A stretch of 64,000 nucleotides of DNA from Lactiplantibacillus songbeiensis (GTDB lineage: Bacteria > Bacillota > Bacilli > Lactobacillales > Lactobacillaceae). Numbering within the stretch: position 1 is the stretch's first letter; each line of letters starts with the position of its first letter. A model generated the notes under the pieces. That model searched no databases. It saw only the letters and a program-made list of their open reading frames with translations, and was not told the origin of the DNA. Of the stretch, positions 17,424 through 36,320 are shown in pieces. Both the position numbers and the translations under genes were made by a program. Where the stretch lies: assembly GCF_005405125.1 (NCBI RefSeq), contig NZ_BJDL01000019.1, positions 1-64,000 on the forward strand. Direction: 5' to 3'.

Positions 17424-17549
17424 GGGTAGCATCCTTTCATAATTAAAATACCGATACGTTAAACTATTATACTATGATTGTGGTTTCATTAACAATTTTA
17501 TCCGGGGAAAATTAGGATTTTGTGTCACGGATTGGTTAAATTTGTCGCT

Positions 17550-17702
17550 ACGGTTGGGCAGGACTGACACTGGAACGTGGTGGCCGCGTTTGGAAACCAT
17601 AGTGCGGTCTTCCAAGCCGGGCTTTGACTAAGAACGGGAAAACCCACCCGCTCTAAGTCAAACGACACCACTGAGCGTCATCCTGCCCGCCCTACGCTAA
17701 TG
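17550..17702 (+). repeat. structured repeat, copy A
   Basis: About 150 bases of GC-rich non-coding sequence related to copies at 17912-18068 (inverted) and 35862-36002. It folds as a branched element. The closing stem is GTGGTG (17577-17582) with CACCAC (17666-17671). Hairpin 1 is TTGGAA (17590-17595) with TTCCAA (17610-17615). Hairpin 2 is TTTGACT (17623-17629) with AGTCAAA (17656-17662), extended by CGGG/CCCG. No coding frame runs through it. Confidence 0.8.
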
Positions 17703-17911
17703 ACGATCATGTCTTTGGCTTAGACTTAATTAAAGACCATTTTACTTGTTTATTAATCACTAAGCATGTTAGGACAACATTTATAAATCACCACATCGAT
17801 GCTTTTCGATTAGGTGACCTCATAACAACAAAATCAGACAACTAAAAATCAGGTGTTCAGTTAGACGCTCACCATTTTTAATTTCAAGCCTAATTAACAA
17901 TAAATCCATTA

Positions 17912-18068
17912 ACTAGCGTAGGACGGGCTGGGTGATGCTCAGTGGTGAAATTTTACTTGGTTGGGGTGAATTTTCCCCGGCCTAGTAAAAGCCCGGCTTT
18001 CGAGACCGCCCTTCGGCTCGAAAACGCGGCCACCACGTTCCAGCATCATCCCAGTCCGTCCGGAGCGC
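17912..18068 (-). repeat. structured repeat, copy B (inverted relative to copy A)
   Basis: The reverse complement shares with copy A the blocks GGAACGTGGTGGCCGCGTT, AGCCGGGCTTT and CACCACTGAGC, and ends in CCTACGCTA. The same three stems form with different bases. The closing stem pairs 17942-17947 with 18031-18036. Hairpin 1 is TTTCGAG/CTCGAAA (17998-18004, 18017-18023). Hairpin 2 is TTTTACT/AGTAAAA (17951-17957, 17984-17990). Confidence 0.8.
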
Positions 18069-18101
18069 CACGTAAGCACCATTTCCCATCACATATAAAT
18101 C

Positions 18102-18148
18102 AGTGCAAATTAAAAGCAGCGCCTACGAAAGGGCTGCTTTTGCACTTA
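18102..18148 (-). terminator. terminator of acpP
   Basis: On the minus strand GTGCAAAAGCAGC pairs with GCTGCTTTT...TTGCAC around a short loop. It lies directly past the acpP stop. Confidence 0.8.
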
Positions 18149-18149
18149 C

Positions 18150-35805: not shown

Positions 35806-36320
35806 ACCCTTTTTCAGTCATGTTTAGACGACTGATAATTTTTTTTTTTTGTTTTGCCACTCTGGTCGGCCCAGAATCAGCTGGAACACGGTGGCCACGT
35901 TTTCGAGCCATAGTGCAGTCTCGAAAGTCGGGCTTTATCTAAGTTGAAAACCACGACTAAGATAAACGCCACCACTAAGCCAATTTGGGACCTCCCGACG
36001 TTAATTAACAGGTATTAATAAACTTAATGATTAGCTATTTTTAACTCAGTAGTTTATCCGAGAGATTAGTTCCTAAAATGCTCAGCCGTAGCGTTCCAGT
36101 ATCTTAGAAAACAACTGGTAGACGACAAATTTAATTAATACCAATCGTACCTATATATAACTGTATGACAACCCATTCAAACATCATTAATTAACTACCA
36201 GTTAACTAGCTGAGCCGACTGGAGCGACAATAACAACACTTATGAATAATTTTTAAACACGCGTATGTTAATTGTATCAAGAATCAACAGTCACGTGAAG
36301 CGTCAAGACCGATGACAGAA
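35806..36320. other. gene-free region between coaBC and rpoZ
   Basis: About 515 bases without a credible gene. It contains structured repeat copy C at 35862-36002. A second weakly palindromic stretch, about 36061-36235, has inverted arms AACTGGTAG/CTACCAGTT and the TTAGTTCCTAAAAYGCT string also found in repeat D1. An 11-base T run precedes copy C. Confidence 0.6.
35862..36002 (+). repeat. structured repeat, copy C
   Basis: Third copy of the branched repeat. The closing stem is GGTGGC (35890-35895) with GCCACC (35968-35973). Hairpin 1 is TTTCGAG (35901-35907) with CTCGAAA (35920-35926). Hairpin 2 is TTTATCT (35934-35940) with AGATAAA (35960-35966). Its left flank carries the reverse complement of the D2 hairpin core, so the two repeat types share modules. 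Confidence 0.8.

Follow-up and report, generated by a model that had tools for sequence, protein, structure and literature searches.

Paired inverted three-way-junction folds in an apparently undescribed MITE family of Lactobacillaceae with IS982-like ends

Palindromic units arranged as inverted pairs in intergenic DNA are known from the BIME/REPIN sequences of enterobacteria and pseudomonads, which are associated with a Y1 transposase. ERIC and NEMIS/Correia elements are MITE-like, possess an RNA fold and are able to alter transcript processing; to our knowledge, paired inverted domains are not known in them. In the Bacillus cereus group, the MITE-like element bcr1 occupies intergenic sites in a mean of 39 and up to 130 copies, bcr1-bcr3 often lie within UTRs or operon intergenic regions, and bcr10 and bcr18 are predicted functional RNAs (PMC3446304, PMC6542083). 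A TTTAT-linked, recombination-like mobility is described for the bcr elements (PMC6542083), and bcr3, MITE-like in B. cereus, is reported to correlate with mRNA half-life when it is transcript-borne (PMC3446304). REPs are given a length of 20-40 bp (PMC3733652).

The family described here resembles BIME/REPIN sequences in its intergenic location and in having palindromic units that form inverted pairs. However, its units (arms) are three-way junctions of ~155 nt, not single short hairpins, and fall outside the 20-40 bp range, and the matching transposase is of the DDE type, theirs being Y1. To ERIC and NEMIS/Correia it can be likened, by description alone, as a MITE-like element with an RNA-type fold. 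Like bcr1-bcr3, it is intergenic and MITE-like, and like bcr1 it is present in high copy number; in kind it is a structured MITE, as bcr1 is. It is set apart from bcr1-bcr3, again by description, by another host, two inverted folds in each element and an IS982 partner. The IS982 family itself has terminal repeats in common with it: those of a 960-bp element of L. nangangensis and that at a single end of a broken host-genome copy. The MITE, however, has no transposase gene, and the IS copies tested have no arms. No published description of the element was found by title or abstract in a search that mostly left subscription journals outside, and it apparently represents an undescribed IS982-mobilised MITE family with a conserved RNA-like fold. 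As far as searches of this literature go, novelty lies in the cargo of two inverted three-way junctions, the partner from the IS982 family, the occurrence in 13 genera and the evidence for selection in place.

Elements of the window and architecture of the family

The window (the whole 64,000-nucleotide stretch of DNA analysed) comes from a Lactiplantibacillus close to L. dongliensis; the rnc proteins of the two are 98% identical. Arms were scored with two covariance models: R1, made from 43 arms, and R2, a second model built on the opposite strand. The following features were found in the window:

17433..18149, no strand: acpP-rnc intergenic region, which houses element 1; element-less in 11 other Lactiplantibacillus genomes
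17546..17705, minus strand (the inferred functional RNA strand): arm A of element 1, class II; R1 156.8 bits on the plus strand, R2 130.9 bits on the minus strand
17706..17907, no strand: spacer of element 1; 29% divergence from L. dongliensis over 210 aligned positions
17908..18067, plus strand: arm B of element 1, class II, in inverse orientation to A; R1 158.5 bits, R2 143 bits
24516..24598, no strand: 83-bp remnant of the same mobile element after deletion; terminal repeats at both ends, with 2 and 3 mismatches
35858..36009, minus strand: arm C of element 2, class I; R1 133.1 bits, R2 123.1 bits
36050..36122, plus strand: second arm of element 2, class III; R2 21.3 bits, E 0.00029, and alignment with intact units
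36126..36149, minus strand: degenerate right terminal inverted repeat of element 2, read by eye against aligned intact units

Three copies of a structured repeat, A, B (inverted) and C, had been picked out by a sequence-only reading of the window; all three were recovered at their positions with the stem sequences it had quoted. They are non-coding, as it had said: stop-free runs in these arms do not exceed 44 codons in any frame, and protein coding was rejected. Its repeat unit had to be revised, since the real unit is not a single ~150-bp repeat but an inverted pair of arms with a spacer. A and B together form one element, and C has an overlooked partner arm at 36050-36122, in which both hairpins are deleted and the closing stem and the GUUCC core are retained. 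In the 83-bp remnant the arms are nearly absent, and GCTGAT flanks it on both sides; no match of the remnant type occurred in 100 shuffles of the window. The remnant adjoins terminator-like sequence. Chance was ruled out as the source of the repeat pattern, which is far beyond it, and an intrinsic terminator was ruled out by eye, no T run following the fold.

Elements of the family mostly measure 0.4-0.6 kb and consist of a spacer between two inverted arms of ~155 nt. On the inferred strand, 69 of the 74 neighbouring arms lying within 700 bp of each other point outward, five are in tandem and none point inward; this count covers 72 host-genome sources (71 stretches around copies and the window) and uses 178 of 182 matches, the four weakest having been dropped. 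Arm classes are set by the closing stem, which is GGCCAGAATCGGCT/AGCCAATTCTGGCC in class I, GGTCTGGATTGATGCT/AGCATCATCCAGCC in class II and GGGTTCTAAAACGCT/AGCATTTTAGAACCC in class III. The best-preserved ends belong to units composed of a class I and a class III arm ~50 bp apart. Gene-less units have TACGCTTGGTGCTAGTTG, the terminal sequence of the best-kept copies, or a near match to it at both ends, and span 394-408 bp in 12 of 17 cases and 139-353 bp in the rest. Units of classes I and II, with poorly preserved ends and longer spacers, look older than those of classes I and III. The A/B element combines class II with class II, and hence the common I+II or I+III make-up is a tendency and no rule.

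Among the shortened arms listed, 11 of 13 belong to class III (L026:13550, L027:2924, L037:2888, L220:3211, L222:2851, L226:3224, L227:2911, L235:2884, L246:2887, L257:2932, and position 36050 of the window). They are 69-96 nt long, having lost most of the hairpins and retained the closing stem, with varied deletion end points. Treating them as one subfamily was dropped because these end points differ; hairpin loss therefore looks recurrent, and its repetition suggests that the hairpins of the second arm are dispensable.

Arms with an extra hairpin, which form a four-way junction, make up a further class in Lactiplantibacillus and Levilactobacillus (L017:3335-3421, L042:3759-4135, L051:1257-2050). 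Clusters of three arms (e.g., II, III, I) occur at L030, L031, and L038 and suggest insertion into or beside older elements.

Mobility, the IS982-family partner and distribution

The earlier proposal of a non-autonomous mobile element is borne out by the comparisons: the elements have terminal inverted repeats, target duplication, empty sites, no notable ORF and an autonomous partner with the same ends, as MITEs do. With up to two mismatches allowed, TACGCTTGGTGCTAGTTG has 160 matches in the host genome and 160 in L. dongliensis, the backward-pattern controls giving 0 and 1. Target-site duplications and empty sites, for which the sequence-only reading had suggested looking, were both seen. Exact flanking duplications of 5-7 bp were found in 13 of 27 units taken from hand-picked loci with both ends found (three of the 27 being IS copies), shuffled pairings of left and right flanks yielding a mean of 0.7 and a maximum of 4; in the other 14 units the duplication is absent or shorter. 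The acpP-rnc spacing is 717 bp in the host genome and 765 bp in L. dongliensis, both with the element, and 137-241 bp at the empty site of 11 further Lactiplantibacillus genomes (including one MAG; L. fabifermentans excluded). Here the element sits between terminator and promoter. Another site, L009:1974-2804, contains an arm complex in the host genome and is empty in L. dongliensis.

At L017:3096-3415, compared with L111, the two genomes carry the whole element in opposite orientations at the same place; 398 bp align in reverse at 83% identity. At L026:10647-11087, compared with L115, ~200 bp on each side are by eye near-identical between the same genomes; the element differs, running from class I to class II in one and from II to I in the other, with arms 85-86% alike in reverse and a spacer that does not align.

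The genome of L. nangangensis (G010) contains three 960-bp elements with ends like those of the MITE (two intact at L150, a broken one at L151). Two of the three encode an intact 289-aa protein, which is an IS982 transposase by NCBIfam model NF033520 (219.1 bits against a cut-off of 130, E 6.7e-65) and also matches Pfam DDE_Tnp_1_3. In a broken IS relative in the host genome (L195), one end has one mismatch and the other is degenerate. Judged by its ends and its protein, the 960-bp IS982-family element is the likely source of a transposase acting in trans. No arm was found anywhere in the seven IS-bearing loci searched, which indicates that the IS itself moves without arms. A search for a partner IS using the G287 terminal repeat, TACGTTTAGTCAAGGG, yielded 20 sites, none of them paired ~960 bp apart.

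When arm A was searched by blastn, matches came from 43 places in the host genome and from 10 of the 21 genomes available for the genus; plasmids and phages gave none. The R1 model detects at least 141 arms in the host genome and matches 19 of the 21 genus genomes, host included, two being without a match. Further copies in this and related genomes, the absence of which would have spoken against the sequence-only reading, were thus found by covariance-model search, R1 matching 82 of 301 Lactobacillaceae genomes in 13 of 40 genera (nine candidates scored per genome, strict filters). Of 25 named genomes with 118 candidates scored in each, 20 match R1 and five do not; the matches number at least 118 in L. 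dongliensis, 112 in L. plantarum EGD-AQ4, 109 in L. mudanjiangensis, 110-115 in three Levilactobacillus species, 8 in Pediococcus argentinicus, and 10 in Loigolactobacillus bifermentans. The fold is not essential, as 2 of 21 and 5 of 25 genomes are without a match. At the level of the order, R2 matches 28 of 395 genomes, three of them from another family (seven candidates scored per genome).

A dispersed ~175-nt repeat in another family (L210-L219, in G353, G381, and G395) gives weak R2 matches (best E 8.8e-8), with a similar junction and a hairpin that closely resembles one of those in the element. The 3.2-kb loci yielded no inverted partner arm for it, and Rfam gave no match over the repeat in the five of ten loci searched; by its sequence, kinship with the element is possible.

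The distribution bears on whether the arms are host regulatory RNAs, i.e., leader or 3'-UTR elements of specific operons to which the transposon relationship would be secondary. Such a role would agree with the copies that species share at the same sites and with their slow change in place (see below). However, match numbers run from 0 to more than 100 inside one genus, and automatic ORF calls place the sites in every orientation (tandem in 35 pairs, divergent in 14 and convergent in 10, plus 28 singles; 13 clusters not bordered by a gene on each side give no context). Moreover, Rfam 15 has no family at gathering over the arms, where matches stay at chance level (best E 0.85), and a search of 8 loci likewise gave no match over arms. 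We consider it improbable that the arms are host regulatory RNAs of this kind.

Fold, strand and slow change in place

The consensus fold, derived from 38 arms of several genera on the outward strand, is a three-way junction in which two hairpins join a long closing stem that contains a conserved internal loop. In these diverse arms standard pairs account for 95.3% of 1816 pair cells, and 37 of the 48 pairs vary on both sides in at least one arm. The hairpin stems are highly variable, while hardly any variation occurs in the internal loop, where CA faces GUUCC on the outward strand. The sequence-only reading had described compensatory stem changes in its three copies and recommended a statistical test; pairing is kept in the added copies, and the covariation score of 0.596 exceeds every control. 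The shuffles score 0.175, none of 500 reaching the observed value, and, as kinship alone can beat shuffles without structure, the score was also compared with slid controls, which preserve relatedness and give at most 0.114. In minimum-energy folds of whole units, arm often pairs with arm.

On the outward strand, the non-Watson-Crick cells comprise 53 G-T and 17 A-C (p 2e-5), or 19 and 7 when counted by column (p 0.03), and this excess of G-T over A-C points to the outward-reading strand as the putative functional one. Folding stability is greater on the outward strand in 27 of 31 distant arms (hand-picked, near-orthologs among them) and, as a weak bias, in 87 of 147 arms of the host genome and L. 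dongliensis (p 0.02), class II being unbiased. Between orthologs, single changes of Watson-Crick pairs to or from G-T, A-C and other mismatches number 15, 23, and 15, respectively, on the strand of the earlier reading, which on the outward strand is a small G-T-type excess (23 vs. 15). Since such a strand preference is expected of RNA, unlike duplex DNA, the asymmetry favours RNA. Of the structured RNA proposed earlier, the RNA fits this strand-specific tolerance of G-T, but its strand is opposite to the one described. No clear promoter signal was found in the spacers (mean best match 8.26 outward vs. 8.06 inward), so that the arms would be made by read-through. The better-kept arm showed no significant tendency to follow the direction of host transcription (17 of the 26 tandem clusters with asymmetric arms, p 0.17; 26 of 46 overall).

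At orthologous sites of the host genome and L. dongliensis, 6.7% of 4427 arm positions have changed (a figure inflated by poorly aligned arms at L028 and L030), compared with 19.6% of 2098 spacer positions plus 488 gap columns, 14.5% of 850 positions in the 25 bp outside the arms and 8.3% of 7436 positions in the flanks, which are partly coding. This comparison covers 17 of 25 mapped clusters, from 18 locus pairs; eight with another arm pattern or swapped arms were excluded and six further clusters were unmappable. In element 1 the arms differ by 6.9% over 277 aligned positions. At another site, in three Levilactobacillus species, the differences amount to 5.9-7.5% in the arms, 11.8-20.7% between the arms and 5.4-6.6% in rnc. 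Within the arms of the host genome and L. dongliensis, changes affect 99 of 2733 paired positions (3.6%) and 36 of 195 and 35 of 250 terminal-loop positions (14-19%); the unpaired internal-loop core shows 0 of 196, a comparison that is partly circular because the core sites were picked for family-wide invariance. In 28 ortholog arm pairs scoring at least 75 bits, 19 of 21 double changes convert one Watson-Crick pair into another.

It could be argued that the fold is unselected and that both sides of a stem are changed by hairpin template switching (quasipalindrome correction) or by gene conversion between copies. More than 100 matches in several genomes, the element inverted in place at L017 and the one at L026 that was either replaced or inverted and has another spacer would suit such processes. 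Template switching, however, cannot preserve an unpaired core while terminal loops change, and conversion tracts should bring the loops along with the stems, which argues that the fold is selected in place. In addition, orthologous arms retain, by eye, their copy-specific stem sequences, and neither process predicts the strand asymmetry; we regard both as very improbable explanations. The slow change of stems and core thus appears, from these alignments, to fit selection on the fold where the element sits, in agreement with what the sequence-only reading had proposed.

A selected fold might instead work as DNA, in the form of a cruciform or single-strand hairpin recognised by a transposase, a repair enzyme or a nucleoid protein, the RNA being irrelevant. 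The position of the arms just inside the transposon ends, the inverted arrangement of nearly all neighbour pairs and the spacers without promoter signal are in line with this. Nevertheless, the 53:17 asymmetry would be unexpected if both strands were equal, and the arms change slowly although the bordering 25 bp do not, and also where the terminal repeats have decayed, as in element 2 with arm C. As the tested IS copies have no arms, the IS moves without them. We consider a role as DNA unlikely.

Proposed explanation and significance

The explanation that we favour, and hold to be fairly probable, is an IS982-mobilised MITE whose paired inverted folds are cargo that would work as RNA on the outward strand. 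A gene-less MITE, in all likelihood mobilised in trans by a transposase of the IS982 family, carries two inverted copies of a ~155-nt domain folding into a three-way junction. The sequences demonstrate its mobility, the matching IS ends, the fold, its covariation and its slow change at sites that two species have in common. The fold would act as RNA on the strand reading outward from the spacer, with read-through from host genes supplying the transcripts. As the arms form an inverted pair, one of them would be in working orientation whichever way the element is read: transcription from either side would yield one such arm at the exit end. Against this explanation stand the spacers without promoter signal, the lack of a significant tie to host transcription, the pairing of arm with arm in whole-unit folds, the recurrent hairpin loss in class III arms, the weak folding bias and small G-T-type excess in the two close genomes, and the genomes without a match.

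Since the putative RNA would extend outward across the terminal repeat and on into flanking DNA, the arms might also be imagined as guide-RNA scaffolds (omega-RNA-like), with flanking DNA as the guide. A stretch of about 30-40 nt of terminal repeat lies between fold and flank, however, the matching IS encodes a DDE transposase, and the 25 bp beside the arms are unconserved; we find guide scaffolds scarcely credible.

For the MITE-borne RNA, our best guess, itself a doubtful one, is a cis effect on the processing or insulation of host transcripts. The arms could serve as cis-acting processing or insulating elements, for instance through a site for a ribonuclease or a protein in the conserved internal loop, and such an effect would keep insertions harmless or useful. 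The reported correlation of bcr3 with mRNA half-life (PMC3446304) makes the guess of cis-processing testable, though not proven. That the fold appears to stay intact even once the element is settled hints at an unreported RNA-level role. Tentatively, the arms may represent a partly domesticated transposon-borne RNA, kept functional in place at more than 100 sites per genome, in which the fold and not the sequence would be selected after the death of the element.

Lactiplantibacillus plantarum and related bacteria are in wide use in food, and an element with 112 matches in L. plantarum EGD-AQ4 and without an Rfam match constitutes an annotation gap. With more than 100 natural replicates per genome, combining slow folds with free-running spacers, the effect of structured MITEs on or for host transcripts becomes directly testable.
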